From: Rathayibacter sp. Leaf185
GTDB lineage: Bacteria; Actinomycetota; Actinomycetes; Actinomycetales; Microbacteriaceae
Assembly (NCBI RefSeq): GCF_001423885.1
Contig: NZ_LMPP01000002.1
Location: 947,956 to 1,011,955 of the forward strand
Length of the DNA: 64,000 nucleotides
Direction of reading: 5' to 3'
The position numbers were made by a program, and so were the translations under genes. The notes below the pieces were generated by a model that saw only the letters and a program-made list of their open reading frames with translations, had not been told where the DNA came from and made no database searches. Shown here piece after piece: positions 1,540 through 23,585 of the stretch; the first letter of the stretch is position 1, and each line of letters starts with the position of its first letter.

Positions 1540-1573
1540 GCGCCCAGTCTACGAGCGAGACTTCGCCCAGCTC

Positions 1574-1603: not shown

Positions 1604-1636
1604 TCTCCGAGTCGTCCCTCGAGAGGAAGCACCACC

Positions 1637-6224: not shown

Positions 6225-6249
6225 GCCGTCACGACCACCGGGTCGGTGC

Positions 6250-6513
6250 TCAGTCGGCGCTCGCGCGGTCGTCGCCGACCGGGCCGTCGGTCTCGTCGGG
6301 GAGGGTCGCGTCATCGGCGACCGTGTCGCCACCGCTGTCGCCCTCGGTCACGGCGTCGCTGACGCCCCGGTCGATGGCCGTGCCCCCGGGGGCAGCGCCC
6401 GCGGCGGAGCCGTCGGTGCCGCCCTCCCCGGGCAGCACGGTCTGGGCTCCTCCGAGGTTCGGTGCCTCGGTGCCGGTCTGCTCCGGCAGGTCCTCGTTCA
6501 CGTTCTCGGCCAC
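6250..6513 (-). CDS. Small acidic hypothetical protein
   Basis: 87 residues from a GTG with an AGAGGAG ribosome site just upstream; an in-frame ATG 33 bases earlier has no such site. The protein is very rich in Asp, Glu, Gly, Ala and Thr, lacks Cys and hydrophobic helices, and is probably disordered. I recognise no family. It is convergent with the FAH gene and divergent from the helicase gene. Confidence 0.6.
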   Translation of the reverse strand: MAENVNEDLPEQTGTEAPNLGGAQTVLPGEGGTDGSAAGAAPGGTAIDRGVSDAVTEGDSGGDTVADDATLPDETDGPVGDDRASAD

Positions 6514-6656
6514 AGCGGCTCCTCTCGTAGGACTCCAGTCGAGCACGCGGGCCGTTCGGCGAGCAGGGTCTTGACACTCCGGGAGGCGGCCGGCCAGGGC
6601 GCTTCACCGTGCTCCCCGGAGCTGTCAAGCAGGGTCGCGGCGGGCGGGCGGAGTCG

Positions 6657-6669
6657 TAGCGTCGAAGGC
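6657..6669 (+). promoter_or_regulatory. Probable leaderless promoter (-10 TAGCGT)
   Basis: TAGCGT at 6657-6662 ends 7 bp before the helicase ATG, so transcription would begin at or next to the start codon. No Shine-Dalgarno sequence precedes this ATG. Five other unrelated genes in the window show the same arrangement. Confidence 0.45.
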
Positions 6670-8334: not shown

Positions 8335-8374
8335 CACGCAGAAGGCCGCCCCTCACGGGACGGCCTTCTGCGTG
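8335..8374. terminator. Bidirectional hairpin terminator
   Basis: A perfect 14-bp stem (8335-8348 with 8361-8374, arm CACGCAGAAGGCCG) and a 12-nt loop lie between the convergent helicase and DUF2795 genes. There is no long T-run on either side, which is common in very GC-rich Actinobacteria. Confidence 0.85.
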
Positions 8375-8381
8375 ACGGGGC

Positions 8382-8573
8382 TCAGACGTTCGAGACGGCC
8401 GAGCTGACGTCGGTGGGCTTCTCGTAGTCGCCGTCGGGGATCGCACGCAGGGCGTCGAGGACGTCGCCCTCGGCACCCTCCTTCTCGGCGGTCTCGACGA
8501 TCGTGTCCTTCGACGCGGGGTAGTCGATCCCGGCGAGGTACTTCTGGATCTGGATGGGGTTGGGCGTGGCCAT
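8382..8573 (-). CDS. DUF2795 domain protein
   Basis: 63 residues covering nearly the whole small domain: IQIQKYLAGIDYPASKDTIVETAEKEGA-type repeat with the typical DYPASKD and ALRAIPDGDY segments. The function of DUF2795 is not established. A good ribosome site (GAAAGGA) precedes the ATG, and hldE ends 23 bp upstream, so it is the last gene of the aldehyde dehydrogenase-hldE-DUF2795 unit that ends at the hairpin at 8335-8374. Confidence 0.88.
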   Translation of the reverse strand: MATPNPIQIQKYLAGIDYPASKDTIVETAEKEGAEGDVLDALRAIPDGDYEKPTDVSSAVSNV

Positions 8574-8596
8574 GACGGCGTCCTTTCGTGGGGGTG

Positions 8597-10081
8597 TCAG
8601 GAGGGGCGGGTCTGAGTGCCGGAGCGGATGCGGTGCACCATCTCGGTCGTGGAGTGCTCGGAGACGTATCCGACCGTCGTGACGGTGCCGCCGTACGAGC
8701 GCACGACCACCGCCTCCGCGAGCATGTCGGGGGCGTAGTCGCCGCCCTTCACGTAGACGTGCGGCCGCACGCGCTCGAGGAGCGGGATCGGGGTATCGCC
8801 GCTGAAGAGCGTGACGTAGTCGACGCAGCCGAGCTCGGCGATGACTCCTGCGCGGTCGCCCTCGCCGTTGATCGGGCGGCCCTCGCCCTTCAGGCGGCGG
8901 ACGGAGTCGTCGTCGTTCACCGCGACGACCAGCACGTCGCCGAGCTCCCGTGCCTGCCGCAGGTAGGCGGTGTGGCCGCGGTGCAGCACGTCGAAGCAGC
9001 CGTTGGTGAAGACGACCCGGCGGCCGCGGCGCGACTCCTCGGCGAGGACCTCGACGAGGCGGTCCTCGTCGAGCACCGTCGCGGCGGGGGCGGCCAGAGA
9101 GGCGAGCAGGTCGTCGGCGCTGCAGACGGAGGTGCCGGGGCGCTGCACGACGACGTCGGCGGCGGCCTGCGCGAGGTCGACGGCGTTGGCGAGGGAGCGT
9201 CCGGCGGCGAGGGCGAGCGTCGCGGTGGCGGCGAAGGTGTCGCCGGCTCCCGAGGCCTGCTTCTCCTCGGCGGGCTGGGCGAAGGTGCGGGTGAGCGTGC
9301 CGTCGGCGTCGAGGGCGGCCGACCCGTCGCGGTCGAGGGTGACGACGACGTGGCGGGCGCCGGAGCGCTCGCGGAGGCCGTCGGCGTTCGCCCGCACGGC
9401 GGCGGCGCGCGCGGTGCCGCGGCCGAGCGAGCCGCCGAGGAGGAGCTCGGCCTCCTTCGCGTTCGGCGTGACGAGATCGGGTCGCGCGAACGCCCAGTCG
9501 GCGAGGTCGTGCGCGTCGATCACGAGCAGCTCGGGGCGGCCGGCGGCGAGCATCCGCTCGACCGCGGCGCGGAGGACGCCGGAGCCGTAGTCGCAGACGA
9601 GGACGGCATCGGCGCCCCTGGCGGCCTGCACCGCGGTGTGCGCCAGCTCGTCGAGCACCGCGTCACCCGGACGGTGGGGGCCGGAGTCGACGCGCAGCAT
9701 CACGCTGTCGCCGCCGACCACGCGGGTCTTGATCGTCGTGGCGACATCGCTCCGGATGATCGCGCCGGTGTCGAGGCCGGCGCGGTCGAGGGCGGCGAGG
9801 AGGCGGTCTCCCTCGGGATCGCGGCCGGCGACTCCGACCGTGCGGACCTCGGCGCCCAGGGCGCGCAGGTTGGCGGCCGTGTTCGCCGCACCGCCCGCGA
9901 CGTCGACGACGTCATCGAGGCGGAGGACCGGAGCCGGAGCCTCGCGGGTCACCCGCTCGGCCTCGCCCAGCCACCACGAGTCGAGGATGAGATCGCCGAC
10001 GACCACGACGACCGGCGGCCGCTCGCGGACGTGCGCGACGAGAGCGCTCGCGCGCTGGAGAGCCGAGCCCTCGAGGCTCAT
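8597..10081 (-). CDS. hldE: Bifunctional heptose-7-phosphate kinase / heptose-1-phosphate nucleotidyltransferase
   Basis: 494 residues with both HldE (RfaE) domains. Residues ~20-330 are a PfkB-type kinase (GGAANTAANL near 63-72; anion-hole/catalytic GAGDTF at 278-283). Residues ~350-490 are a nucleotidyltransferase with the HxGH motif HRGH at 367-370, FTNGCFDVL and VYVKGGDY. The family phosphorylates D-glycero-D-manno-heptose 7-phosphate at C1 and, after phosphatase action, makes ADP-heptose. The start overlaps the aldehyde dehydrogenase stop by 4 bp. A second fusion lies at 15742-17112; the two are clearly different paralogues. Confidence 0.9.
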   Translation of the reverse strand: MSLEGSALQRASALVAHVRERPPVVVVVGDLILDSWWLGEAERVTREAPAPVLRLDDVVDVAGGAANTAANLRALGAEVRTVGVAGRDPEGDRLLAALDRAGLDTGAIIRSDVATTIKTRVVGGDSVMLRVDSGPHRPGDAVLDELAHTAVQAARGADAVLVCDYGSGVLRAAVERMLAAGRPELLVIDAHDLADWAFARPDLVTPNAKEAELLLGGSLGRGTARAAAVRANADGLRERSGARHVVVTLDRDGSAALDADGTLTRTFAQPAEEKQASGAGDTFAATATLALAAGRSLANAVDLAQAAADVVVQRPGTSVCSADDLLASLAAPAATVLDEDRLVEVLAEESRRGRRVVFTNGCFDVLHRGHTAYLRQARELGDVLVVAVNDDDSVRRLKGEGRPINGEGDRAGVIAELGCVDYVTLFSGDTPIPLLERVRPHVYVKGGDYAPDMLAEAVVVRSYGGTVTTVGYVSEHSTTEMVHRIRSGTQTRPS

Positions 10082-11406
10082 CGGCCGGCGCCGGGGAGCA
10101 CGGGCAGGCCGAAGTGCACGACCGTGGTGGTGGTCATCTCGTCCAGCAGCTCGGGGCCGTAGCCGAAGCCGGAGCCGCTGGTGCCGCGGGGCTGCGCGCT
10201 GCCGCCGGGGGCGCCTCCGAAGACGCCGTTGATCTTGACCGTGCCGACCGGGAGGGTCGCCGCGGCACGGTGGGCGTGCTCCATGTCGGCGGTGAGCACG
10301 GTCGCGGCGAGGCCGTAGGGGCTAGCGGCGGCGCGGGAGAGGGCCTCGTCGAAGTCGTCGACGACGAGGATCGGCGCGACGGGACCGAAGGTCTCCTCGG
10401 TCATGACGAGCATCTCGTCGGTGCAGCCGGTGAGGACGGTGGCGGGGTAGAAGGTGCCGTCGCCGGGCGCGCCTCCCGTGAGGGCGGTCGCTCCGTTCGC
10501 GGTGGCCTGCGACACGTGCTCGTGCACGGCATCGCGCATGCGGGCGTCGACGAGGCGGGGGAGCGGGCCGGCGCTCCAGCGGTCGGCTTCGGCGACGAGG
10601 GCGGCGGTGAACGCCTCGGCGACATCGCGGTGCACGTAGATGCGCTCGACGGAGGTGCAGATCTGGCCGGCGTTGGCGAAGGCGCCGAGGGCGGCCTGCT
10701 CCGCGGCCCAGACCGGGTCGACGTCGCGGTCGACGACGAGCGCGTCGTTGCCGCCGTTCTCGAGGATCACGTGCGCGCCGGTGACGGCGGCGACCCGTGC
10801 GAGCGCGCGGCCGGTGGCGGTCGAGCCGACGTGCGCCAGGACGTCGACGCCCTCGGTGCGGGCGAGCGCGTCGCCCACGGTGCCGTCGCCCTCGACGAGG
10901 GTGAGCACGCCCTCGGGCAGCGCTTCGGCGAGGATCCTGGTGAAGAGCGCACCGGTGCCCGGGCTGCGCTCGCTGGGCTTGTGGATGACGACGTCGCCCG
11001 AGACGATCGCGGCGCCGAGCATGCCGGCGGCGACGGCGACGGGGTCGTTCCACGGGGTGAGCGCGAGGACCACGCCGCGCGGGTGCGGCAGGGCGAGATC
11101 GACGTTGAGGGCGCCTCCGCGCAGGCTCCTGCCGCGGTGCAGCGGGCCGAGCTCGGCGTACTGCAGGAGCGTGTCGACTCCGGCGCGGACCCCGCCGAGG
11201 GCGTCGCCGGCGGGCTTGCCGGTCTCGTGGGTGTTGAGCGCGGCGAGCTCCTCCTCGCGCGCGGCGACGCGGTGCGCGGCGGCACGGAGCAGGGCGCCCC
11301 GCTCGGCGGGCGCGGTGGCGGCCCAGGCGGGGAAGGCGGCGCGGGCGCCTCGGACGGCGTCGGTCGCGAGGGCGGTGGGGGGTGCGGTGTCGATGGTCAC
11401 GGTCAC
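10078..11406 (-). CDS. Aldehyde dehydrogenase family protein
   Basis: 442 residues, somewhat shorter than typical ~480-residue members. The catalytic pair is present: C250 in NAGQICTSVERI and E216 in ILENGGND (the usual LELGGK is altered). PWNDPVAVA replaces PWNFP and HKPSERSP the usual KPAE/KPSE. It would oxidise an aldehyde with NAD(P)+. It is the first gene of a three-gene unit with hldE and a DUF2795 protein, so a sugar-derived aldehyde is possible, but the substrate is unknown. Confidence 0.9.
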   Translation of the reverse strand: MTVTIDTAPPTALATDAVRGARAAFPAWAATAPAERGALLRAAAHRVAAREEELAALNTHETGKPAGDALGGVRAGVDTLLQYAELGPLHRGRSLRGGALNVDLALPHPRGVVLALTPWNDPVAVAAGMLGAAIVSGDVVIHKPSERSPGTGALFTRILAEALPEGVLTLVEGDGTVGDALARTEGVDVLAHVGSTATGRALARVAAVTGAHVILENGGNDALVVDRDVDPVWAAEQAALGAFANAGQICTSVERIYVHRDVAEAFTAALVAEADRWSAGPLPRLVDARMRDAVHEHVSQATANGATALTGGAPGDGTFYPATVLTGCTDEMLVMTEETFGPVAPILVVDDFDEALSRAAASPYGLAATVLTADMEHAHRAAATLPVGTVKINGVFGGAPGGSAQPRGTSGSGFGYGPELLDEMTTTTVVHFGLPVLPGAGR

Positions 11407-11491: not shown

Positions 11492-11953
11492 TCAGCTCCG
11501 CTCGTCGGCGGCGTCGAGCAGCCGGAGCGTGATGCGGTCGAGGACGCTCGCGGCCGCGGAGAGATCATCCGCGGTCGGATCGGCGTCGTCGGGAGAGAGG
11601 TGCCGGTGCAGGTCGCGGTGCATCGCCCGCATCGCCTCGTCACCGGTGGTCGTCAGCTCGAGGTGCAGGCTGCGTCGATCCTGCGGGTGCTCGACCCGGC
11701 GGACGAAGCCCGACGACACCAGCCGCGTGGTGATGCCGGTCACCGCGCCCTTCGACACCGCGAGCAGAGCCGAGAGCTCCTTCGGCGTGATGGAGCCGGC
11801 CGCGCCGATGCGGAAGAGGCAGCGGAGCTCGACGTCCGACAGGCCGTGCTCGGCGGCGAGGCGGCCCCGGTGCCCCTCCAGAGCGCGGACGAACCGCACG
11901 GCCGCATCCGGGAAGCCCTCGAGCCGGTGCTGCTGCGGCGTTCCGCCCGTCAC
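11492..11953 (-). CDS. MarR-family transcriptional regulator
   Basis: 153 residues with the winged helix-turn-helix: ITPKELSALLAVSKGAVTGI (helices 3-4), then the wing EHPQDRRSLHLELTTTG. The DRR triplet is the conserved wing motif. It is divergent from the rhodopsin gene, 94 bp away, with an AT-richer palindrome between them, so it is the obvious candidate regulator of the rhodopsin and of itself. It could instead act on the aldehyde dehydrogenase-hldE unit that follows in the same direction 85 bp downstream. Confidence 0.92.
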   Translation of the reverse strand: MTGGTPQQHRLEGFPDAAVRFVRALEGHRGRLAAEHGLSDVELRCLFRIGAAGSITPKELSALLAVSKGAVTGITTRLVSSGFVRRVEHPQDRRSLHLELTTTGDEAMRAMHRDLHRHLSPDDADPTADDLSAAASVLDRITLRLLDAADERS

Positions 11954-12011
11954 TCGCGTCTCCCCGAATCCACCCCGTTACGCTACGCGGTCGTCGCGGA
12001 GAAGACCACTC

Positions 12012-12046
12012 ATTTGTTCAGTAAACGAATAGTTCACAATCTGAAC
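12012..12046. promoter_or_regulatory. Candidate MarR operator and promoter region of the rhodopsin gene
   Basis: Two inverted repeats lie in this unusually AT-rich spot. ATTTGTT (12012-12018) faces AACGAAT (12024-12030), pairing in 6 of 7 bases. GTTCA (12032-12036) faces TGAAC (12042-12046) perfectly, ending one base before the ATG. A site here would block transcription or translation start of the rhodopsin. No clear Shine-Dalgarno sequence precedes the ATG. Confidence 0.55.
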
Positions 12047-12047
12047 C

Positions 12048-12914
12048 ATGATTCCCGACATCCTGACCCAGGGTCAGTACGACACCGTCTACAACGCCCT
12101 CTCGCTCGTGATCGCCTCCCAGCTGTTCACGGCGATCTTCCTCGCCATCTCGCTGACCAGGATCCTGCCCCGGTACCGGCAGGCGATCACCGTCGCCATC
12201 GTCGTGTGCGGGATCGCGGCCTACCACTACTTCCGCATCTTCGACTCCTTCAAGGAGGCGTTCGTCACCGAGTCGATCGGCGGGACGGGCGACTACACCC
12301 AGGCCGCGGGCGCCTCCTTCAACGAGGGCTACCGCTACGTCGACTGGCTCCTGACCGTGCCGCTGCTGCTGGTCGAGCTCGTCGCGGTGCTCGCCCTCGC
12401 GCGGAAGGTGCAGTCGCGGCTGCTCTTCCGGCTCGTCCCCGCGTCGGCCCTCATGATCGCGCTCGGCTACCCGGGCGAGATCAGCGGGGACAACGGCGTG
12501 CGGGGGATCTTCGGGATCCTCTCGACGATCCCGTTCCTCTACATCCTCTTCATCCTCTTCACGCAGCTGAGCCGCTCGCTCGAGAACCAGCCGGCGGGCG
12601 TGCGGGGCACGCTGGGACGGCTCCGCTTCCTCCTGCTGCTCAGCTGGGGCGTCTACCCGATCGCCTACCTTCTGCCGCTACTCGAGGTCTCGGGTGCTGA
12701 CGCGTGGGTCGGCAAGCAGGTCGGGTACTCGATCGCGGACATCCTCGCGAAGGCGGTCTACGCGCTGATCATCTTCCACGTCGCCAAGATCAAGTCGTAC
12801 GACGACGACCACACGTTCGCGGCGATCGAGACGTCGAGGGCCGACGCCCCGGAGCGGGAGGCGCCGGTCGAGCGCGGTGTCGCCAGCGAGGGCGAGGCGG
12901 CGGCCCGCGGCTGA
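12048..12914 (+). CDS. Light-driven proton pump rhodopsin, xanthorhodopsin-like
   Basis: 288 residues, seven membrane helices. Retinal would bind K235 (DILAKAVYAL, helix 7). Helix 3, YRYVDWLLTVPLLLVE, carries the proton-pump triad D99 (acceptor), T103 and E110 (donor), matching the DTE motif of proteorhodopsins; L107 at the spectral-tuning site suggests green absorption, and H60 matches the conserved helix-2 histidine. By eye, G156 in IFGILST aligns with the glycine that opens the carotenoid antenna site in xanthorhodopsin. The charged C-terminal tail (~residues 250-288) is cytoplasmic and divergent. No carotenoid or retinal synthesis gene is in the window. A weak hairpin (12937-12953) follows. 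Confidence 0.95.
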   Translation: MIPDILTQGQYDTVYNALSLVIASQLFTAIFLAISLTRILPRYRQAITVAIVVCGIAAYHYFRIFDSFKEAFVTESIGGTGDYTQAAGASFNEGYRYVDWLLTVPLLLVELVAVLALARKVQSRLLFRLVPASALMIALGYPGEISGDNGVRGIFGILSTIPFLYILFILFTQLSRSLENQPAGVRGTLGRLRFLLLLSWGVYPIAYLLPLLEVSGADAWVGKQVGYSIADILAKAVYALIIFHVAKIKSYDDDHTFAAIETSRADAPEREAPVERGVASEGEAAARG

Positions 12915-12975: not shown

Positions 12976-13239
12976 TCACTCCCGCGACCCGCCCCGCCCC
13001 CTCGGACCGACGACGGCTCTCCAGATCCCGACGCCGACCCCGAGTGTCCAGAACGGGAGGCCGACGAACGCCAGGATCCACAGAGGCCCGCCGCGCCGAC
13101 CGGAGCCGACGACCTCGTCGAGACGCCAGTCGTGGGCGATGCAGACGGCGAGAGTGACGGCGAGGAATCCCGCCGACACCGCCGCCAGGAGCAGGGGGCG
13201 GGCGGCGAGGGCCTCGTGGACCTTCCGCCGCTGCGTCAT
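12976..13239 (-). CDS. Small two-TM membrane protein
   Basis: 87 residues with two hydrophobic helices (roughly LLLAAVSAGFLAVTLAVCIA, residues ~16-35, and PLWILAFVGLPFWTLGVGVG, ~52-71) joined by a basic, glycine-rich loop. I do not recognise a named family. It lies 60 bp downstream of another small membrane protein gene in the same direction and may be cotranscribed with it; it is convergent with the rhodopsin gene. Confidence 0.7.
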   Translation of the reverse strand: MTQRRKVHEALAARPLLLAAVSAGFLAVTLAVCIAHDWRLDEVVGSGRRGGPLWILAFVGLPFWTLGVGVGIWRAVVGPRGRGGSRE

Positions 13240-13299: not shown

Positions 13300-13719
13300 T
13301 CAGCGGAAGAAGCGGATCGCCGGGACCCTGACCACCCGGCCACCAGAGGACTGCACGAGACCGACGACCGCGACGACGAGAGTGACGACGCCGAGCAGCA
13401 GCCAGACGATCGCGGCGAGATCCCAGGGGAAGAAGCCGCTCGCTCGGATCGACAGGGCGACGACCCACACCACGGTGCACGGGACGGCGATCACGAGAAC
13501 GGTGAGACCCCAGTCCGCGGCTCGGCGGCCGTTCGCGCGCGCGAGTCCGCCTGAGCGGCTCTGATGCAGGCCGACGGCCACCATCACCACGCCGCTGATC
13601 ACGAGAGTGACGAACGGGAGCAGGAGCAGTCCCAGGAGCCCGAGCCCCCAGGACAGGGCCGCCGCGGGCGGTCGGACGGCGGACGGCGGCGGCGGTGTCG
13701 GGGCGTTCGTCACCCGCAC
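13300..13719 (-). CDS. Small membrane protein, four predicted TM segments
   Basis: 139 residues beginning at GTG (13719) or at the GTG two codons later; neither has a strong ribosome site. After a Pro-rich N-terminus there are hydrophobic stretches at residues ~22-50, ~70-90 and ~97-122. It resembles the many small DUF4190/DUF4870-like membrane proteins of Actinobacteria but no signature is decisive. It is divergent from the GT9 gene at 13852. Confidence 0.7.
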   Translation of the reverse strand: MRVTNAPTPPPPSAVRPPAAALSWGLGLLGLLLLPFVTLVISGVVMVAVGLHQSRSGGLARANGRRAADWGLTVLVIAVPCTVVWVVALSIRASGFFPWDLAAIVWLLLGVVTLVVAVVGLVQSSGGRVVRVPAIRFFR

Positions 13720-13851: not shown

Positions 13852-14934
13852 GTGGTCGCCATCGCCCCGCTCCGAGACCGCTTCGACGGAGTCGAGAGGA
13901 TCGCGGTGCTGCGCGGCGGCGGACTGGGCGATCTGCTGTTCGCGCTGCCGGCGGTCGACGCGCTCGCCGCCGCGTACCCGGGTGCCGAGATCACTCTGCT
14001 CGGGAGTCCGGCCCACCGTGTGCTGCTCGACGGCGTCGACTCGCCGGTGGCGGACGTCGAGATCCTGCCCGTCGCGCAGGGCGTCCGCGATGGCGCCGGG
14101 GAGGACGAGCGCGTCGTCGAGGACTTCACGGCGCGCATGCGGGCCCGGCGGTTCGACCTGGCGGTGCAGCTGCACGGGGGCGGCCGGTTCTCGAACCCGT
14201 TCCTGCAGCGGCTCGGAGCGCGGCACACGATCGGGACGCGAACCGACGACGCGGCGGAGCTCGAGCGCACGATCCCCTACGTCTACTACCAGCACGAGAT
14301 GCTGCGTGCGCTCGAGGTCGTCGGCCTGGCAGGGGCCGGAGCGGTCAGGCTCGAGCCGTTCCTGCACGTCGATCCGGAGCGGCGCGACCGGCTCGCGGCC
14401 GCGCTGCCCGCGGGCGGCCCGCTCGTGCTGATCCATCCGGGCGCGACGGATGTGCGTCGGCGCTGGCCGAGCGCCTCCTTCGCCGAGGTGGCGCGGGCGC
14501 TGCTGGCCGATGGGGCGCGCGTGCTCGTCGTGGGTGACGCCTCCGACGTGCCGGCCGCCGACGAGATCGTCGCGGGAGCGCCCGGCGCCCAGTCGTGGGC
14601 GGGCGCGGTCGAGCTGCCCGATCTCGCTCCGCTGCTCTCGCTCGCCGATGTCGTGCTGGGCAACGACAGCGGCCCGCGCCATCTGGCGGCAGCGGTCGGC
14701 GCGCCGACGGTCGGGGTCTTCTGGGTGGGCAACGCGATCAACGCCCAGCCCCTCGGCAGGCAGCGCCACCGCGTGCAGCTCAGCTGGACGACGCGCTGCC
14801 CGGTCTGCGGGATCGACGTCACGCAGGTCGGATGGACGGCTCCGCGCTGCGAGCACGAGCTGAGCTTCGTCGACGACGTGCCGGTCGACCGGGTGCTCGA
14901 GGACGTGCGCGGAGTGCTCGCCGCGACCCGCTGA
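13852..14934 (+). CDS. Glycosyltransferase family 9 (heptosyltransferase-like)
   Basis: 360 residues from a GTG with GAGAGGAAC upstream. It has the GT9 two-Rossmann layout: N-terminal VLRGGGLGDLLFALPAVDAL, middle LIHPGATDVRRRWP, and C-terminal nucleotide-sugar region GNDSGPRHLAAAVGAPTVG. A CPVCG pair near residue 312 resembles the Cys-rich tail of GT9 proteins active in Actinobacteria. GT9 enzymes transfer heptose from ADP-heptose in Gram-negative LPS; here the acceptor is unknown. It stands alone, but lies between the two heptose operons. A 22-bp-stem hairpin follows. Confidence 0.88.
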   Translation: MVAIAPLRDRFDGVERIAVLRGGGLGDLLFALPAVDALAAAYPGAEITLLGSPAHRVLLDGVDSPVADVEILPVAQGVRDGAGEDERVVEDFTARMRARRFDLAVQLHGGGRFSNPFLQRLGARHTIGTRTDDAAELERTIPYVYYQHEMLRALEVVGLAGAGAVRLEPFLHVDPERRDRLAAALPAGGPLVLIHPGATDVRRRWPSASFAEVARALLADGARVLVVGDASDVPAADEIVAGAPGAQSWAGAVELPDLAPLLSLADVVLGNDSGPRHLAAAVGAPTVGVFWVGNAINAQPLGRQRHRVQLSWTTRCPVCGIDVTQVGWTAPRCEHELSFVDDVPVDRVLEDVRGVLAATR

Positions 14935-15012: not shown

Positions 15013-15717
15013 TCAGGGCCAGGACGGCTCCTCCTCGTGCGTGATCACGAGCTCGCGGACCTCGCAGCCGCGCGGCTGGCCGAGCACGAACATCACGGCG
15101 TTCGCCACGTTCTCCGGGTCGTTCAGCAGCGCATCCGGTCCCGGCTTGTACTGCGCGTCGCGGTCGTCGAAGAAGCGCGTCTTCATGCCGGAGGGGATCA
15201 GCGTCGTCACGCCGATCTCGCCCTTGGTCTCGGCCGCGAGGGCGCGGGTGAAGCCGAGTACGCCGAACTTCGACGCGCAGTAGGCGGTCGCGTCCGAGAC
15301 GGCCTTGATCGCGAGCGAGGAGGCGACGGTCACGACGCGACCGTGCGACTCGGTGAGGAACGGCAGGGCCGCGCGGACGACCGCCGCAGTGCCGAGCAGG
15401 TTGACCGAGATGACGCGCTCCCACTCCTCCGGCTCGACGTCGACGAGGCGACCGCAGCGGTCGATGCCGGCCGCGGTGACGACGGCGTCGAGCCCGCCGT
15501 GCTCGCGGGCGATCTCGACGACGGCCTTCTCGGCCTCGCGGGTCTTCGCGACGTCGACCTGGTAGGCCGCGACGCCCTCGCCGAGCGAGGAGACGTCGCG
15601 GTCGAGGATGATCGGGGTCCCGCCGGCGGCGGTGACCGCGGCGGCGACGGCGGCGCCGAGGCCCGACGCTCCTCCGGTGATCAGAACGCGGCCGATGGGG
15701 GTGGGAGTGGTGCTCAT
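15013..15717 (-). CDS. Short-chain dehydrogenase/reductase
   Basis: 234 residues, classical SDR. The cofactor motif is GGASGLG (residues ~14-20), NAG is replaced by AAG (TAAGIDRCG), and the catalytic S-Y-K set is seen as VASS followed by YCASK. It lies 24 bp after the second hldE with its own GAAAGGA site, so it is probably the last gene of the heptose operon. It is not HldD: that epimerase is a longer extended SDR with a GxxGFIG start. It may modify the sugar or its precursor by NAD(P)-linked oxidoreduction. Confidence 0.9.
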   Translation of the reverse strand: MSTTPTPIGRVLITGGASGLGAAVAAAVTAAGGTPIILDRDVSSLGEGVAAYQVDVAKTREAEKAVVEIAREHGGLDAVVTAAGIDRCGRLVDVEPEEWERVISVNLLGTAAVVRAALPFLTESHGRVVTVASSLAIKAVSDATAYCASKFGVLGFTRALAAETKGEIGVTTLIPSGMKTRFFDDRDAQYKPGPDALLNDPENVANAVMFVLGQPRGCEVRELVITHEEEPSWP

Positions 15718-15741
15718 GGGTGTCCTTTCGAGGGGGCGGAG

Positions 15742-17112
15742 TCAGCCGACGCGAGCGAGCGCGGCGGCGAGACGGGTGGTCGAGCGGCCGGGGTGGTACG
15801 GCACGGTGAGCACGCGGCCACCCCACTCGGCGACGGTCGCGGTCTCGGGCAGGGACTCGGCGGAGTAGTCGCCGCCCTTGACCCAGACATCGGGGCGGAT
15901 GCGGCGCAACGCCTCGTCGGGCGTGTCCTCGCCGAAGACGAGCACGGCGTCGACGCAGCCGAGCGCGAGGAGGAGGTCGACCCGGTCGTCCTGGGGGATG
16001 ATCGGCCGGAGCTCGCCCTTCAGGCGCCGCACGGAGTCGTCGGAGTTGAGGCAGACGATCAGGCAGTCGCCGAGCGAGCGCGCGGCGGCGAGGGTCCTGG
16101 CGTGGCCGGCGTGCAGCAGGTCGAAGCAGCCTCCGGTGGCGACGACGGTGCCGCCCGAGGCGCGGACCGCCTCGGCGACCCGGAGCGCGTCGACGCCGCC
16201 GCCGTGCAGCGGTGCCGCGTCGGCGGGGGCAGCGAGGGAGGAGACGCCGCCCGCGAGCAGGTAGGCGCCCGCGTCGGCCACGGCGGTGCCGACGGCGGCC
16301 GAGGCGCTCGCGCCGTGCGCGAGGGCGACGGCGGCGGAGGCGGCGAACCGGTCGCCCGCGCCGCACGGGTCGGTCGGCGGCACCGGGGCCGCCGGCACGA
16401 CGACCGGCACGCCGGCTCCCCGGGAGCGCACCAGCGCGCCGCCGGAGCCCATGGTCACGGCGACCGCCCCGCAGCCCCAGCGCTCGAGCAGCGTGGTCGC
16501 TGCCGACTCGGCCAGCGTCACTCCGCGACCCGTCGCTCCGGAGAAGGCGGTCGCCTCCGCGAGATTCGGGGTGACGAGCGTCGCCGCGGCGACCGGAGTA
16601 GAGCCGCGCGGGTGCGGATCCCAGACGAGCGGCACCGTCAGCGCATCGAGCGCTGCGCGCAGCGAGGCGTCCTCGGTGAGGCGCCGTCCGTAGTCGGCGA
16701 CGACGACCGCGTCGACTCCGTCGAGTGCGGCGAGCATCTCCTCCGTCACCGCGGGCACCGGCGGGCGCTCGCAGCCGCGGTCGAGGCGCACGACGGCGTG
16801 CCCGGAGGCGGCGACGCGGGTCTTCACGGGCGTCGGGGCGCCGGACGGCCCGGCGATGACGCGCACGCCGTTCAGCTCGGCGGTCAGCTCGGAGGCGTCG
16901 GGGTCGTCGGAGAGCACCGTCACCAGGGTGACGTCGTGACCGTCGCGGGCGAGCATCCTGGCCACGAGGCCGGCGCCTCCCGCACGGACGCTGCGGGTGG
17001 ACACGTCGATGACGGGCACCGGAGCATCGGGGCTCAGCCGCTCCGCCGGCCCCGAGAGGTCGACGTCGAGCATCACGTCGCCGACGACGGCGATCCGCAG
17101 GCGGGCGCTCAC
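15742..17112 (-). CDS. hldE: Second bifunctional heptose kinase / nucleotidyltransferase
   Basis: 456 residues from a GTG that overlaps the gmhA stop (GTGA). The PfkB-type kinase half (residues ~5-290) starts RIAVVGDVMLDVDLSG and has GAGDRF at 251-256; the nucleotidyltransferase half (~318-456) has ATGGCFDLLHAGH with HAGH at 334-337, NSDDSVRRLKGE and VWVKGGDY. Both active sites look intact. Because it sits with gmhA and gmhB, it is the likely principal HldE of the pathway; the other fusion (8597-10081) may be a specialised copy. Nucleotide specificity (ADP or other) cannot be read from the sequence. Confidence 0.92.
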   Translation of the reverse strand: MSARLRIAVVGDVMLDVDLSGPAERLSPDAPVPVIDVSTRSVRAGGAGLVARMLARDGHDVTLVTVLSDDPDASELTAELNGVRVIAGPSGAPTPVKTRVAASGHAVVRLDRGCERPPVPAVTEEMLAALDGVDAVVVADYGRRLTEDASLRAALDALTVPLVWDPHPRGSTPVAAATLVTPNLAEATAFSGATGRGVTLAESAATTLLERWGCGAVAVTMGSGGALVRSRGAGVPVVVPAAPVPPTDPCGAGDRFAASAAVALAHGASASAAVGTAVADAGAYLLAGGVSSLAAPADAAPLHGGGVDALRVAEAVRASGGTVVATGGCFDLLHAGHARTLAAARSLGDCLIVCLNSDDSVRRLKGELRPIIPQDDRVDLLLALGCVDAVLVFGEDTPDEALRRIRPDVWVKGGDYSAESLPETATVAEWGGRVLTVPYHPGRSTTRLAAALARVG

Positions 17113-17729
17113 GCGGCGGCCTCGGTCCGAGCGCGGATCCGGTGCTCGAACGCCCGGCACAGTGCGTGCACGAGCACGAGCTGCGCCTCCTGCACATTCG
17201 AGCCGTGCCCCTCGAGCGCGATGGAGTCGTCGCACGCCTCGGTCAGCGGGTTGGGCCCATCGCCCGTGAGCGCCCAGGTGCGGGCCCCCGCGGCGCGCGC
17301 CGCCTCGGCCGCGTGCAGCAGGTTGGCGCTGCGTCCGCTGGTCGAGAGCAGCACGACGACGTCTCCCGCGCGGGCGTGCGCGGTGACCTGGCGGGCGAAC
17401 ACGTGGTCGAAGCCGTAGTCGTTGCCGATCGCGGTGAGGCTCGACGACTCCGCGTGCAGCGAGATCGCCGAGAACGGGATCCGGTCGCCGTCGAAGCGGC
17501 CCACCAGCTCGGCCGTCAGATGCTGCGCCTCGGCCGCCGAGCCGCCGTTGCCCGCGGCGAGCAGGCGCGCACCCGAGTGCAGGCGGTCGGCGAGGTCGAT
17601 GCCCCAGGCCGCGATGCGCTCGGAGTGGCGCTCGAGCTGCGCGACGACGTCGAGCGCGCGGGCGACGTGGTCGTCGATCAGGCGGCGGGCCGCGTCGGTC
17701 GGAGTGTCGAGAACGGTGTCGAGGGTCAT
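17109..17729 (-). CDS. gmhA: Sedoheptulose 7-phosphate isomerase (GmhA-like SIS protein)
   Basis: 206 residues, one SIS domain. Signature parts are [20 protein letters not shown] (residues ~57-76) and [17 protein letters not shown]. GmhA converts sedoheptulose 7-phosphate to D-glycero-D-manno-heptose 7-phosphate, the first step of heptose synthesis, in the cytosol. The longer SIS family also includes DiaA, but the operon context (gmhB and hldE) favours GmhA. It overlaps the GT4 gene by 4 bp upstream and hldE by 4 bp downstream, so translation is probably coupled. Confidence 0.92.
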
Positions 17730-19006
17730 CGTGCCGCCTTCCGGGGGAGGGGGAGCGAGGGCGCTCCGGTGAGCAGGGGCTCGGCGAGCGCCGAGAGGTA
17801 GGCGGTCTCGGTGTCCGCGGCGACGCGGTCCCAGGAGTAGCGGGAGGCGACTCGCTCGCGGCCGGCGGCCCCGTAGGCGCGGGCGCGATCGGGCTCGTCG
17901 ATCAGTGCGGCGAGGGCGGAGGCGAGCGCCACCGGGTCGCGCGGCGGCACGTGCACGCCCGTGACGCCGTCGACGACCGTGTCGATGAGCCCGCCGACGG
18001 AGGACGCGACGACCGGGACTCCGCAGGCCATCGCCTCGAGCGGCGTGATGCCGAACGGTTCGTACCAGGGCGCGCAGACCACGATGTCGGCCGAGCGGAG
18101 CATCGACGGCATGTCGGTCTGCGAGAGCTGGCCGACGAGGGCGACGCGGTCGGCGACTCCGAGGCTCTCGGCGATCCCGTGCAGGCGCTGGTACTCGGGG
18201 TCGGCGGCGAGCGCGTCGCCCGAGCCGGAGCCGCCGACGATGACGAGCTCGGCGTCGCGGCCGTCGGCGACCAGCCGGGCCAGCGCCTCGATGGCGTGGC
18301 CCATGCCCTTGCGCGGCACGAGGCGGCCGATGCTCATCAGCCGGGTGCGGTCCGAGCGGGGCGCGACGGGCCCGTCCGGGGTGAAGCGCTCGATGTCGAC
18401 TCCGCACGGCACGATCGAGATGCCCTCGGCCGGGACGCCCAGGGCGGTGAGCTCGGACACCTCGTCGGAGCACGTCGCGACGATGCCGTCGGCGCGGCGG
18501 CCGACCCCGGGCTCGAGCCATTCGCGCTCGGCGGGGCTCGTGTCGTTCGCACCCTGCTGGCGGCGCTTCACGACTCCGAGAGCGTGGAAGGTGTGCACGA
18601 CCGGCACGCGGTGGCCCGTCGCCTGCTCGATCCGCTCGGACGCGTCGAGGGCGGCGACGCCCGACATCCAGAAGTGGCTGTGCACCAGGTCGGGCCGCTC
18701 CTCGAGCCAGTCGGCGGCGAGATCGACCGCGAAGTCGCCCATGAACGGCAGCAGCTCGTCCTTCGAGACCCGGCGGGCCGGTCCCGCGTCGATGTGCACG
18801 ACCTCGACTCCGGAGGAGAAGGGGACGCGGCGGGGGAGGGCGGCGTCGTCGCGGCGCGTGTAGACCACGACGCGGTGGCCGCGGCGGGCGAGAGCCTCGG
18901 CGAGGGCCGCGACGTGCACGTTCTGCCCGCCCGCGTCCACTCCGCCGAGGGTGGCGAGCGGGCTCGCGTGCTCCGACACCATCGCGATGGTCAGGGGCTG
19001 CGTCAT
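17726..19006 (-). CDS. GT4-family glycosyltransferase
   Basis: 426 residues, GT-B fold. The N-terminal acceptor domain opens [20 protein letters not shown], similar to MshA and sucrose-phosphate-synthase type GT4 enzymes. The C-terminal donor domain has [10 protein letters not shown] and the EX7E-like block [20 protein letters not shown]. It would be a retaining transferase using a nucleotide sugar. Its position inside the heptose operon, with 4-bp overlaps on both sides, suggests it helps build the heptose-containing glycan rather than mycothiol, but this is inference. Confidence 0.9.
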
Positions 19007-19974
19007 CGGGTGCTCCCTCTCTCAATGAGGCTGTGGCGGGGGAGGTCGGCGAGCACCGTGTCCCAGTCGCGGTGGAACCGGCCGAGTCCGTAGCGCTCGA
19101 GGGCGACCTCCCGGGCCACCGCTCCGGCGATCGCCGCGCGCTCCGGGTCCTCGATCAGCGCGCGGGCGGCGGAGGCGAGGGCGTCCAGGTCGTTCGTGAT
19201 CGCCCCGGCCTCCGGCGGCACCGCACGGCCCGCCTCCGTCACGTCCAGCGCGACCACGGGCATCCCGAGGTGCATGGCCTCGAGCAGCGCGAGGCCGAGC
19301 GAGGTCCAGCGGAACGGATGCAGGTACACCCGCCGCTGGGCGAGCGCGGCGTGCATGGCCTCGGTGCGGACGTCGCCCTGCACGTTCACGGCGTCGAGCC
19401 CCGGCAGCTCGCGGAGGCGATCGGTCTTCATCCCGAAGACGTCGAGCGGTGCGATCGCGGCGAAGCGCGGCAGCAGGTCCGTCCCGGCGACCCGGCCGCG
19501 GCGCACCGGCTCGTTGACGGCGACGCCGAAGTGCGGCAGCTCGCCCGTGTAGAGCGCGCCGGGGTCGTGGATCCCGTGCTCGATGACCGTGGTCCTCGTC
19601 GATCCGGTGTCCCACATCAGCGCGTTGAAGTGCGTGACGTGCACCAGGAGGAGGTCGTCGCGGTCGGCGAGCGGGTGCCGGTTGTGGGGTACGTCGCCCC
19701 GGGGCGTGTTGTGCTCGACGTAGATCATCGGGACGTCGCGGCCGAGGAGGCGCTGCGCCTCGGCGAGCTCCTCGGGGCGCTGCAGCAGCACCGCGTCGAC
19801 CTCGGCGTCGCGCAGCTCGCGCGGCGCGATCTCGATCGCGTTCGGCCAGTCGCGGCCGCCGGTGCCGAGGCCCCAGCCGTCGCGCTCCGGAGTCGTCGGG
19901 AGCAGGTACTCGTGGTCGCCGCGGACGAACGCGTCCGCCCAGCCGCCGTGCACGTGCCAGAGCAGGATCCTCAT
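19003..19974 (-). CDS. Glycosyltransferase, GT4-like (GT-B fold)
   Basis: 323 residues, short for GT4. The N-terminus [19 protein letters not shown] is typical of a group of actinobacterial transferases. The C-terminal part contains [32 protein letters not shown], matching the donor-binding region with the conserved glutamate of GT4 proteins. No membrane helices. It overlaps the GT9 gene upstream and the GT4 gene downstream by 4 bp each. Acceptor and donor are unknown; operon position implies the heptose glycan. Confidence 0.82.
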
Positions 19975-21002
19975 GCCATCGCCTCCGTCGTCGTCAATCG
20001 CAGGGCGGCGGCGACCGCCTCCTCGGCGCTCACCCCCGCCAGGCAGGGGTGGCCGGGCACCGGGCAGACCCGGGCACGCGAGCCGGCGCAGGCCGCGTGC
20101 TGGTCGCCGAGCAGCGCGACCGGAACGCCGTAGGGCGCCCAGCGCACGGCCGGCACGACCGGCGCGAAGAGGCTGACCACCGGCGTGCCGACGGCCGCCG
20201 AGAGGTGCGCCGGGCCGGTGTTGCCGCAGATCACCACGGAGGCGCGCGCGAGCACCTCGGCGGCCCCAGCGAAGTCGGTGGCCCCGCCCAGGTCGACTCC
20301 GCGCGTGCCTGCGACCTGCGCGGTCAGCGCGCGCTCGCCGGGGCCGCCCGTGACGGCGACCGTCCAGCCGGCGTCGGCGAGCAGCTCGACGGCGCGGGCG
20401 GCGTTCTCGGCGGGCCAGGCCCGGGCCGGGACGGCCGCGCCGGGGTGCACGACCACGTAGCGGCCGACTCCGTCGAGCGCTGCGGGGAGGCCGCCCTCGC
20501 GGCGTACCAGCAGCAGTCCGTCGTCGCCCTCGGGCAGGGGGAACCCGGCCGCGGCGGCGATCGCGAGTGCCCGCTCCGGCTCCGGCTGATCCTCCTCGAG
20601 CGTCTCACCCGGGACCAGGCGCACGTCGAGCAGTGCGCCCGCGAAGTCGACGGAGGCGCCCGAGACGCGGGCGACACCGGCCAGGCGCAGCAGCAGCGCG
20701 AGCGGCAGCGGCGACTGGTGGAACGAGGTGAGGATCACGGCCTCGTCCGGTGCGAAGTCCCGCACGATCGCGGCGAGCTCCTCGACCAGGGCGGCATCGA
20801 CCGGCCGGGAGGCGTCGCCTATCCAGGGGCACGACCAGGTGCGCACGGAGGAGGGGCCGGGCAGCAGGGCGCCCGCGGGCGCCCCCTGCGGCCCGCAGAG
20901 AAGCAGCACCTCGGCGTCCGCCGCGATCGCGCGGACGGCGGGCCCGCAGAGCAGCACGTCCCCGGCGCTGTCGAGGCGGGCGACGAGCACGCGCCGGGTC
21001 AC
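19971..21002 (-). CDS. Glycosyltransferase family 9 (heptosyltransferase-like)
   Basis: 343 residues with the GT9 pattern: LVARLDSAGDVLLCGPAVRA at the N-terminus (GD pair at the acceptor side), VVVHPGAAVPARAWP in the middle and GNTGPAHLSAAVGTPVVSLF for nucleotide-sugar binding. Cysteines in QHAACAGSRARVCPVPGHPC form a tail cluster that may bind a metal. Embedded in the heptose operon between gmhB and the GT4-like gene with 4-bp overlaps, it is the best candidate for the heptosyltransferase that uses the pathway's product. Confidence 0.9.
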   Translation of the reverse strand: MTRRVLVARLDSAGDVLLCGPAVRAIAADAEVLLLCGPQGAPAGALLPGPSSVRTWSCPWIGDASRPVDAALVEELAAIVRDFAPDEAVILTSFHQSPLPLALLLRLAGVARVSGASVDFAGALLDVRLVPGETLEEDQPEPERALAIAAAAGFPLPEGDDGLLLVRREGGLPAALDGVGRYVVVHPGAAVPARAWPAENAARAVELLADAGWTVAVTGGPGERALTAQVAGTRGVDLGGATDFAGAAEVLARASVVICGNTGPAHLSAAVGTPVVSLFAPVVPAVRWAPYGVPVALLGDQHAACAGSRARVCPVPGHPCLAGVSAEEAVAAALRLTTTEAMA

Positions 21003-21580
21003 TCCGCGTCTCCGTCCGGCTGCATCGCGAGCAGCAGCTCGACCGCCTCGAGGAGGGTCGCCGCCTGCAGGGGCGCGGCCGCCACCTCGGCGTCGAGGGT
21101 GATCGGAGTCGGCACGAGCACCCCGCGGGCGCCGGCGGCCGCCGCGGCGCCCACATCAGCGCCGATGTCGCCGATCACCGCGAGGGAGTCGGCGGGCAGC
21201 CCGAGGGCATCGGCCGCGCCGAGCACCATCCCGGGGGCGGGCTTGCGGCAGTCGCAGCCGTCGTCGGGCCCGTGCGGGCAGAGCATCCAGACGTCGAAGC
21301 CGCCGAACAGCTCGTCGACCCGTGCGTTCACGGCGTCGGCCTGTGCGCGGTCGATGATGCCGCGGGCGATGCCCGACTGGTTGGTGACGACTCCGAGGGC
21401 CAGCCCCGCCTCGCGGGCGCGCGCCACGGCGTCGAGCGCGGTCGGCATCGGCACGACCTTCGAGGCGTCGCCGTTGTAGGGCACGTCGACGACGAGCGTC
21501 GCGTCGCGGTCGAAGAGGATCCCGCGGAGCCGCGCCGGGGCGGAGGCCGGGGCGGAGAGGGAGCTCGGGGAGACGTTCAC
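20999..21580 (-). CDS. gmhB: D-glycero-D-manno-heptose 1,7-bisphosphate 7-phosphatase
   Basis: 193 residues, HAD superfamily. Motif I is ILFDRDATLV (nucleophile and acid Asp), motif II is VVTNQSG, and the zinc loop CPHGPDDGCDCRKPAPGM is specific to GmhB/HisB-type phosphatases. It removes the C7 phosphate between the kinase and nucleotidyl transfer steps of HldE. The DRDAT sequence has Ala where Gly is usual (DRDGT). The GTG at 21580 is chosen; the upstream sequence is purine-rich but lies at the promoter. It appears to be the first gene of the operon and faces a divergent GT9 gene. Confidence 0.9.
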   Translation of the reverse strand: MNVSPSSLSAPASAPARLRGILFDRDATLVVDVPYNGDASKVVPMPTALDAVARAREAGLALGVVTNQSGIARGIIDRAQADAVNARVDELFGGFDVWMLCPHGPDDGCDCRKPAPGMVLGAADALGLPADSLAVIGDIGADVGAAAAAGARGVLVPTPITLDAEVAAAPLQAATLLEAVELLLAMQPDGDAE

Positions 21581-21712
21581 GTTCTTCTCGTACCCCTCCC
21601 GGAGGGGTCGTAAACCGGCGGGAGGAGAACTGCTCCTTCTCGGGCGCGTCGAAGCGGGCTCGTCTGAGGTACCGCGGGCGGGGTACCGGTCCCGCGACAG
21701 GAAGGAGGCGCC
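21581..21712. promoter_or_regulatory. Divergent promoter region, heptose operon / GT9
   Basis: 132 bp separate gmhB from the divergent GT9 gene and must hold both promoters. Visible structures are CCTCCCGGAGGGG-type symmetry near 21595-21607, GGAG-AACTG-CTCC near 21623-21635, and two GGTACC hexamers (21668 and 21682) 14 bp apart. None matches a regulator site I know, and no -10/-35 pair is convincing. Confidence 0.4.
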
Positions 21713-22735
21713 GTGCGCGCTCTCACCGACCCCGACGGAACCCCCGAGGTCCTCGCTCTGCGGGCGCTCAAGCTCGGCGACCTGCTCGTCGCCGTCCCGG
21801 CGCTGAAGGCGCTGCGCCGCGGCTTCCCCGAGCACCGGCTGATCCTCGCCACGACCCCCTGGCTCGAGCCGATCGTCGATCTCGTCGACGGCCTCGACGC
21901 CCTGGTCCCGACGCTGCACGGTCTCGACGATCCGCTGCCGGTCGCGCCGCGCCGCATCGATCTCGCCGTCAATCTGCACGGCAATGGCCCGGAGTCGCGC
22001 GACGCGCTCACCGCGCTGATCCCGGAGCGCACCCTCGAGTTCCGCGTCCCCGCGCTCGATCCCGACGCAGGGCCCGATGATCCGCGTCCCGTCTGGATCG
22101 ACGGCGAGCTGGAGCGCGCCCGCTGGGCCCGGCTCGTGAACTCGATCGGTCTCGACGCCGACCCCGAGGACGTCGCGATCGCCGTCCCCGACGCTCCGGC
22201 CCCGATCGACGGCGCGGCCGTCGTGCACATCGGCGCCTTCTACGGCTCGCGCGAGTGGCCGGAGGAGCGCTTCGCCGCGGTCGCGCGCGAGCTCGCCCGG
22301 CAGGGTCACCGCGTCGTCTACACCGGCGGCGCGAACGAGGTCGATCGTGCGCGGCGCGTCGCCGAGCAGGCGGGCACCGGAGAGGTGCTCGCCGGTGCCG
22401 TCGACCTCTCGGAGTTCGCGGCCGTGGTCGCCGCCGCCGAGGTCGTGGTGACCGTCGACACCGGAGCCGCGCACCTCGCCTCGGCGTACGGGATCCCGTC
22501 GGCCGTGATCTTCGGACCGGCGCCGCCCGAGGCGTGGGGGCCGCCCGTCAGCGGCCCGCACGTGGTGCTCACCGACGCGTCGCTGCGACGCGGCGAGGCG
22601 TTCGCCTCCGAGCCCGATCCCGCGCTCCTGGCAGTCCAGGTCGAGGACGTCCTCGCCGCCCTCGCCTCGCTGCCCTCGCGCGCCGAGGCGCACCTCAGGC
22701 GGTCCGCAGGGTCTCGGTCGAGCGCACCGGAGTGA
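21713..22735 (+). CDS. Glycosyltransferase family 9 (heptosyltransferase-like)
   Basis: 340 residues from a GTG with an excellent GAAGGAGG site. GT9 features are LALRALKLGDLLVAVPALKA at the N-terminus, VVHIGAFYGSREWPEERFAA and VTVDTGAAHLASAYGIPSAV. It is divergent from the gmhB-led heptose operon and probably shares its control region. Its 3' end overlaps the sigma factor gene on the other strand by 41 bp. It likely adds a further sugar, possibly heptose, to the same glycan; the acceptor is unknown. Confidence 0.9.
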   Translation: MRALTDPDGTPEVLALRALKLGDLLVAVPALKALRRGFPEHRLILATTPWLEPIVDLVDGLDALVPTLHGLDDPLPVAPRRIDLAVNLHGNGPESRDALTALIPERTLEFRVPALDPDAGPDDPRPVWIDGELERARWARLVNSIGLDADPEDVAIAVPDAPAPIDGAAVVHIGAFYGSREWPEERFAAVARELARQGHRVVYTGGANEVDRARRVAEQAGTGEVLAGAVDLSEFAAVVAAAEVVVTVDTGAAHLASAYGIPSAVIFGPAPPEAWGPPVSGPHVVLTDASLRRGEAFASEPDPALLAVQVEDVLAALASLPSRAEAHLRRSAGSRSSAPE

Positions 22736-23585
22736 CGCGGGCCCGGCGCTCGCGCTCCGGAGCTCCGAGCGCCTCGGCGAGCTGAGCGAGCGTGCGGCGC
22801 TGCAGGCGCGAGACCTGCATCTGAGTGGTGCCGAGCTCGTCCGCGATCTGCTGCTGGGTCATCTCGTCGACGAAGCGCATCCGGAGCAGCTCCTGCTGCC
22901 CCTCCTCGAGCATCGCGAGCGCCTCGGCCAGGCCGTGCCGGCGCTCGATGGCGGCGAGGCGCTCGTCGTCGCCGCCGAGCGTCTCGGCCAGGCGCACCCC
23001 GGCCTCGCCGACCGTCTCGTCGAGCGAGAGCGGGTTCCCCGCCGAGCGCGCATCCGTCACCTCGCCCACCTCGACCCCGAGCCGCCGGGCGACCTCGTGG
23101 TCCGCGGGATGGCGGCCGAGCTCCTGCGCCAGCTCCTCGGCGACCACGGCCTCGCGACGGTGCAGCTCCTGCACGGTGCGGGGCGGGCGGATCATCCAGC
23201 CCAGGTCGCGGAGGTGGCGCTTGAGCTCCCCGGTGATGGTCGGAACCGCGAAGGCGGCGAAGCTGTCGCCGCGGTCGGGAGTGAAGCGCTGCGCCGCCTT
23301 GACCAGGCCGACGTAGGCGACCTGCCGCAGATCCGACCAGTCGCCTCCGGCCTGCGAGCCCGCCGACTGCGGGCCGCCGCGCGAGATCCGGCGGGCCATG
23401 GCCTCGGCCAGCCCCAGGTGGTCGAGGACGATGCGCTCGCGGATGCGGTCGGCCTCCGCGGGCTCGACAGCGGCGCGGCGGAAGAGCGAGAGCGTGCGCG
23501 CGTCCTTCTCGTCCCTGGCCGACTCCGAGAGGGCGCCGGGGCGGGCATCGAGACGGCGCTCTGCGGCGAGATCGGTCAGGCTCAT
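22695..23585 (-). CDS. RNA polymerase sigma factor, SigB/SigF group
   Basis: 296 residues. Region 2 is seen as LVKAAQRFTPDRGDSFAAFAVPTITGELKRHLRD (with the GELKRHLRD stretch typical of group 3 SigB/F/G factors), region 3 around RREAVVAEELAQELGRHP, and region 4.2 as MTQQQIADELGTTQMQVSRLQRRTL. Such factors direct general stress or developmental regulons and are usually held by an anti-sigma factor, but none is adjacent here. The ATG follows GAAAGGCG. It is convergent with the GT9 gene. Confidence 0.93.
   Translation of the reverse strand: MSLTDLAAERRLDARPGALSESARDEKDARTLSLFRRAAVEPAEADRIRERIVLDHLGLAEAMARRISRGGPQSAGSQAGGDWSDLRQVAYVGLVKAAQRFTPDRGDSFAAFAVPTITGELKRHLRDLGWMIRPPRTVQELHRREAVVAEELAQELGRHPADHEVARRLGVEVGEVTDARSAGNPLSLDETVGEAGVRLAETLGGDDERLAAIERRHGLAEALAMLEEGQQELLRMRFVDEMTQQQIADELGTTQMQVSRLQRRTLAQLAEALGAPERERRARVTPVRSTETLRTA

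Follow-up and report, generated by a model that had tools for sequence, protein, structure and literature searches.

Heptose is regarded as a hallmark of Gram-negative lipopolysaccharide (LPS), and the locus described here raises the question of what a set of heptose genes does in an actinobacterium. The locus lies in a stretch of 64,000 nucleotides from Rathayibacter sp. Leaf185 (hereafter the window; G+C 0.69-0.77 in 2-kb steps), whose genome measures 4.1 Mb with a completeness of 99.99. It encodes homologues of GmhA, HldE and GmhB, together with glycosyltransferases (GTs) of families GT9 and GT4. We propose that nucleoside diphosphate (NDP)-D-glycero-D-manno-heptose is made here and passed stepwise by the GT9 and GT4 enzymes to a non-LPS acceptor, an interpretation that we regard as reasonably probable. 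A 2008 survey confined L-glycero-D-manno-heptose to Gram-negatives (PMC2543016). Enzymes for NDP-heptose have been described across kingdoms (PMC11461863), and vertebrate ALPK1 senses NDP-heptoses (PMC11573728). The NDP-heptose pathway is known, and it is the assembly locus and its product that appear to be new.

The cluster spans exactly positions 15013-22735, with a gene for a short-chain dehydrogenase/reductase (SDR) at one end and GT9b at the other (Table 1). Its core runs on the minus strand in the order gmhB-GT9a-GT4L-GT4-gmhA-hldE-B, followed by the SDR gene. Each of the five joins from gmhB to hldE-B is a 4-bp overlap, while hldE-B and the SDR gene are spaced by 24 bp, and the divergent GT9b starts about 130 bp from the core on the opposite strand. 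An earlier reading made from the DNA letters (the sequence-only reading) had described this arrangement, and the coordinates, the five joins and the Pfam matches all agree with it. Its gene list was correct for the core and GT9b and omitted a second HldE gene (hldE-A), the aldehyde dehydrogenase (ALDH) gene before it, and GT9c. Between 8.6 and 22.7 kb there are two linked gene groups: the core with GT9b, and a second group in which ALDH and hldE-A share a 4-bp overlap and GT9c lies on the opposite strand.

Table 1. Genes of the two linked groups (positions in the window) and shortened hldE-B genes of two related loci (positions in those loci).
Feature	Position	Strand	Remarks
gmhB, heptose 1,7-bisphosphate 7-phosphatase (HAD-IIIA), putative	20999..21580	-	start inferred, GTG 21580; aligns to 4pnh, 2gmw
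GT9a, heptosyltransferase-like	19971..21002	-	Pfam GT9; GNTG replaces Asp-containing motif
GT4L, GT4-like glycosyltransferase	19003..19974	-	Pfam match limited to C-terminal part
GT4, MshA / sucrose-phosphate-synthase-like glycosyltransferase	17726..19006	-	Pfam, NCBIfam, solved relatives
gmhA, sedoheptulose 7-phosphate isomerase, putative	17109..17729	-	Pfam SIS_2; motifs of solved GmhA
hldE-B, heptose 7-phosphate kinase / heptose 1-phosphate nucleotidyltransferase, putative	15742..17112	-	GRSTT (STTR5-like) motif
Classical SDR oxidoreductase, usual last core gene	15013..15717	-	adh_short; 234 aa
GT9b, divergent, heptosyltransferase-like	21713..22735	+	DTG motif as in WaaC
GT9c, heptosyltransferase-like	13852..14934	+	NDSG as in WaaF; open reading frame opens 13564, likely start GTG 13852
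Aldehyde dehydrogenase (ALDH)	10078..11406	-	4-bp overlap with hldE-A
hldE-A, second HldE, own clade	8597..10081	-	EHSTT motif
hldE-B cut down to kinase domain beside intact hldE-A	L117 ~6083-6940; L213 ~8337-9209		

To assign the enzymes, Pfam domains, NCBIfam models and solved proteins were compared. The Pfam domains (PfkB and CTP_transf_like in HldE, SIS_2 in GmhA, HAD families in GmhB, adh_short in the SDR, and GT4) agree with every enzyme assignment in both gene groups. Among the heptose-specific NCBIfam models, only that of the HldE nucleotidyltransferase domain (TIGR02199) passed its cut-off of 181.5, and it did so with both HldE-B (183.7) and HldE-A (189.4). GmhA aligned to the solved proteins 5i01 and 1tk9 with GNGGSA, QH..AE..GR, STSG and QE......H in common, and GmhB to the D,D-heptose 1,7-bisphosphate phosphatase 4pnh with DRD, NQSG, CPH..DD.CDCRKP and GD...D in common, as well as to 2gmw, a phosphatase of the same kind, and to 3l8h. 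HldE aligned to 4e84 (heptose 7-phosphate kinase) and 5x9q, and its kinase domain has GAGD. The same active-site residues were conserved across orthologues (121 gmhA, 116 gmhB, 120 hldE-B and 88 hldE-A rows, including the window, with rows containing internal stops or of odd length dropped). A check for active-site substitutions, as proposed in the sequence-only reading, thus left the main motifs of GmhA, GmhB and HldE standing against the solved proteins and turned up an N for D in GT9a. GmhA and HldE are encoded by separate genes in the window and not as one isomerase-kinase-nucleotidyltransferase chain. In the 133 related stretches examined (mostly about 20 kb each), a motif-pattern search found a joint GmhA-HldE open reading frame (ORF) in a single locus, a Rathayibacter contig that has the gmhA and hldE-B motifs within one 899-aa ORF (L184; L and G numbers are our handles for loci and genomes).

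The linkage of these genes in relatives confirmed that the cluster is real and not a chance arrangement. The search of related genomes for the same operon that had been suggested earlier covered 78 named actinobacterial loci and found the complete set of seven core genes in 76; in 71 the labelled genes follow the order of the window. The 78 are those longer than 8 kb out of 80 named loci, some repeat genomes of the other sets, and all were found through hldE-B, so that the counts show linkage and not prevalence. Neighbour counts were taken from a tblastn table, as GC3-based gene calling for an all-against-all clustering had picked many antisense ORFs. The locus is present in Microbacteriaceae, Micrococcaceae, Pseudonocardiaceae and Nocardioidaceae; the median identity of the core to the window was 58-65% in rows mostly from within the window's order, and the nearest named relatives by HldE-B were Rathayibacter (Microbacteriaceae; 86-87% identity). 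In a phylum sample, TIGR02199 matched in 97 of 296 genomes, many of these matches being weak and generic; 35 passed the cut-off and 37 scored above 170 bits. Twenty phylum regions, from 19 of the 36 other genomes above 170 bits, were inspected: the six genes from gmhB to hldE-B were found in 18, the SDR gene as well in 17 (L039 runs up to its contig end), and the exact window order in 9. Of the other two regions, L037 holds only HldE-A, GT2 and GT9c with the core elsewhere in that genome (L038), and L048 has none of the labelled genes. In the family, HldE-B was present in 45 of 299 genomes (near full-length in 43, split into pieces in 2) and its kinase part alone in 2 more, counts taken by hand from the list, since the raw tally of 157 includes weak domain matches. 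In the genus sample (n = 15), 13 genomes gave raw matches and two gave none; HldE-B was present in 12, three of which (G592, G593 and G595) had the match in two pieces, presumably through decay or assembly error, and the match of G599 is an HldE-A fragment.

No match to WaaA (PF04413) or LpxC (PF03331) was found in a profile search of the source genome, in line with the earlier statement that the organism has no LPS; among 14 control genomes, 3 matched WaaA and 4 LpxC, E. coli included. Likewise, HldD (TIGR02197) gave nothing above its cut-off in the genome (best 119.9 vs. 274.6 bits), as the absence of HldD claimed earlier had implied. Therefore, we expect the product to be a D,D-heptose carried by a non-LPS acceptor, unless the SDR epimerises the sugar. 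The best solved relatives of the SDR are hydroxyacyl-CoA-dehydrogenase-, FabG- and sugar-dehydrogenase-like.

A criterion given weight for GT9 heptosyltransferases is the Asp conserved in the motif (N/V)D(T/S)G. The three GT9 proteins scored 95.5, 81.0 and 77.4 bits with Pfam GT9 (cut-off 22), and all GT9 matches of the genome fall inside the window. GT9c has NDSG, as WaaF, and GT9b has DTG, as WaaC; the pattern used found nothing in 42 of 94 GT9b orthologues, which leaves conservation of the GT9b motif unsettled. The nearest solved proteins of GT4 are Tll1590 (6kih) and then MshA (3c48), which we take to act on small phosphorylated acceptors.

Several observations weigh against our interpretation. 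With the NCBIfam kinase model TIGR02198, HldE-B scored 144 vs. a cut-off of 345 and HldE-A was also below it; GmhA (140.1 vs. 209.45) and GmhB (108 vs. 178) stayed under their heptose-specific cut-offs and the GT9 proteins under the LPS heptosyltransferase equivalog cut-offs, and GmhB passed two broader HAD models, including a histidinol-phosphatase domain (102.1 vs. 84.15). GT9a has GNTG, with N at the position of the WaaC/WaaF Asp. Of 120 orthologues, at least 109 have N-T-G (the pattern missed 7, one was misread and 3 were not listed), so that the donor of GT9a may differ from heptose. The SDR matched Epimerase (PF01370) weakly (22.5 vs. a cut-off of 20.9), so that it may epimerise the sugar. 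It was not assumed to be an HldD, as it is a classical SDR despite this match. Finally, the distribution of HldE-B in the family and the genus is patchy.

In the pathway that we favour, sedoheptulose 7-phosphate would first be isomerised by GmhA; heptose 1,7-bisphosphate would then be formed by the kinase domains of both HldE proteins, and GmhB would remove its 7-phosphate. By the same homologies, the nucleotidyltransferase domains would form the NDP-heptose, as the adenosine diphosphate (ADP) derivative and, from HldE-B, perhaps also as the cytidine or uridine diphosphate (CDP/UDP) derivative, and in the absence of HldD the sugar would stay D,D. The later steps are more tentative: GT9a, GT9b and GT9c may transfer the heptose, the two GT4-type enzymes may prime or extend the chain to give a short oligosaccharide, and the SDR, and in the window ALDH, may modify the sugar or the acceptor. 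No flippase, polymerase, ligase or export gene was noticed in the cluster or among the annotated recurrent neighbours in relatives, which were looked at in part. The acceptor would most likely be a primer that is used in the cytoplasm and is either small and phosphorylated or lipid-linked, because the nearest solved relatives of GT4 presumably use such primers and no polymerase or flippase was noticed.

Transketolase is a source of sedoheptulose 7-phosphate, and a split transketolase N/C pair lies directly before GT9b in a Lentzea locus (L190, 2424-4228, plus strand). At the corresponding place L192 has only a 72-residue transketolase match, and the other loci of the 133 have none. A transketolase beside the cluster is a slight hint at this substrate, slight because the pair was seen in one locus.

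Beside the core, relatives carry two sets of further genes. A carbamoyltransferase (Pfam Carbam_trans) was found in 22 of the 133 stretches and HldE-A in 91, and the two never occurred together. In 19 of the 22 loci, no more than 1.2 kb separates the carbamoyltransferase gene from gmhB, and all 22 carry a GT2. Of the 91 stretches with HldE-A, 76 have GT9c, 69 ALDH and 57 a GT2 distinct from that of the carbamoyltransferase set; this second GT2 gave no match in the source genome, G409, G596 and G597 and is present in G513. The occurrence of the carbamoyltransferase in 16 of the 20 phylum regions recalls the Pseudomonas LPS core, which contains carbamoylated heptose (PMC8005017). The likeness to that core, with its WapO, lies in the presence of a Carbam_trans protein in the 22 related loci, and the source genome differs in giving no carbamoyltransferase match.

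With the Gram-negative LPS pathway to ADP-L-glycero-D-manno-heptose (GmhA-HldE-GmhB-HldD, WaaC/WaaF), the locus has in common homologues of the first three enzymes, their motifs and the GT9 proteins. It differs in lacking any HldD over the cut-off and any match to WaaA or LpxC, in its two HldE proteins, in the linked GT4s, SDR and ALDH, and in the D-to-N exchange of GT9a. Tridomain NDP-heptose synthetases of actinobacteria, reportedly described by Tang in 2022, share NDP-heptose synthesis with the locus, which has separate GmhA and HldE genes. Septacidin and hygromycin B are actinobacterial compounds that contain heptose (PMC10948575). On one point the sequence-only reading was corrected: in actinobacteria the pathway is not new, heptose antibiotics and NDP-heptose synthesis there being already in print. 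A Cryobacterium genome paper reports GT9 in only one strain (PMC12113805). Searches of an open-licence collection of papers brought up nothing recognised as concerning this cluster or its product, which does not establish their absence from print.

As to the final product, the heptose may decorate a surface polymer (capsule, exopolysaccharide or cell-wall glycopolymer), and we rate the chance of this as somewhat less than even. The locus is rich in GTs and patchily distributed, and a precedent by another heptose route exists: in Rhodococcus ruber, a guanosine diphosphate (GDP)-heptose gene has an effect on the capsule (PMC12298843, PMC12786566), and a gmhD deletion reportedly makes no 'capsule lipopolysaccharides' (PMC12298843). 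Against this stands the outcome of the partial look for flippase, polymerase and ligase genes, although export genes could be unlinked. Of the surface polymer, glycolipid or protein acceptor suggested in the sequence-only reading, the non-LPS acceptor is thus retained as expected, and the surface polymer as one candidate.

It is possible, and rather less probable, that the locus makes a small diffusible glycoside or natural product in the form of a heptose pseudo-oligosaccharide resembling septacidin or hygromycin B. The heptose of these Streptomyces compounds reportedly derives from sedoheptulose 7-phosphate (work by Tang in 2018), an actinobacterial supply like the one proposed here. GT4 resembles Tll1590 and MshA, presumably enzymes of small phosphorylated acceptors; the SDR and the carbamoyltransferase of relatives are of kinds that we take to be common tailoring enzymes; and the window holds a gene for a major facilitator superfamily (MFS) efflux protein at 1442-3187 (plus strand), most like LfrA (652 bits, cut-off 825). 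However, the present core is, unlike the septacidin and hygromycin B supply, common to several families with moderate change, which in our opinion is unusual for a natural product. No natural-product scaffold genes were noticed in the window, in which no dedicated search for them was made.

The two HldE proteins raise the further question of whether they serve the same pathway. HldE-A and HldE-B form separate groups with a branch support of 100 (quick method; 93 rows, 22 of them in neither group). HldE-A was rejected as a pseudogene or recent duplicate, given this support, its open frame and its higher scores on the HldE models. In two genomes of different genera (G348 and G471), HldE-B consists of the kinase part only and HldE-A is intact (Table 1). 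The cluster of a third (G418, locus L109) keeps HldE-A, whereas gmhA, GT4L and HldE-B were not found there; this genome encodes a homologue of GmhA at another place. HldE-A is probably able to supply the core, as these loci suggest. One shared pathway is therefore likelier than two unrelated ones, and HldE-A and HldE-B probably serve it together.

It is unlikely, in our estimate, that the two proteins make two heptose nucleotides for different GTs, CDP/UDP-heptose by HldE-B and ADP-heptose by HldE-A. The STTR5 motif, (F/L)XXGRSTT, marks nucleoside triphosphate promiscuity of the nucleotidyltransferase (PMC11573728). Its R is found in 112 of 119 HldE-B and would let HldE-B make CDP/UDP-heptose also (PMC11573728, PMC11461863), while of 87 HldE-A, 49 have H at this position, 21 have R and 8 have other residues, the remaining 9 being unreadable; the separate grouping of the two proteins is consistent with such a division. 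The 21 HldE-A with R argue against it, as does the HldE-B motif of the window, YHPGRSTT, which keeps the R and starts with Y, not F/L. Moreover, G348 and G471 lack the HldE-B nucleotidyltransferase and keep HldE-A, so that a nucleotide of HldE-B's own is not always needed.

Protein glycosylation, with GT9 enzymes heptosylating proteins as Aah and TibC do, is improbable, since the weak match of GT9b to TIGR04414 hepto_Aah_TibC (19 bits, cut-off 200) is set against several GTs and sugar-modifying enzymes lying together in a cluster where no gene for an acceptor protein was noticed.

Among the neighbouring genes, those between ALDH and GT9c at 11492-12914 encode a MarR regulator and a protein of the bacteriorhodopsin family (PF01036). 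They were rejected as parts of the system, each being matched in 0 of the 133 related loci, and are probably a local insertion. The corresponding gap of a near relative, L084, contains an ORF (about 5126-5395) that was judged by eye to be antitoxin-like. Two small hydrophobic ORFs (12976-13239 and 13300-13719, minus strand) lie upstream of GT9c on the other strand, and L084 has both too. A sigma-70 family factor (22695-23585, minus strand) is convergent with GT9b, and its homologue adjoins the cluster in 46 of the 78 named loci. In L046, a Na/H exchanger adjoins the cluster.

The farthest-reaching possibility is an undescribed class of actinobacterial heptose glycoconjugates with a conserved core, two alternative finishing sets and the use of both CDP/UDP-heptose (from HldE-B) and ADP-heptose (from HldE-A). 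We consider this quite unlikely; if true, it would be the first known physiological use of CDP/UDP-heptose. A commentary calls the roles of CDP/UDP-heptose elusive and suggests looking at the genes beside the biosynthetic ones (PMC11573728), and the locus supplies such neighbours. A conserved heptose assembly locus of this kind implies an unlooked-for glycan in common actinobacteria.

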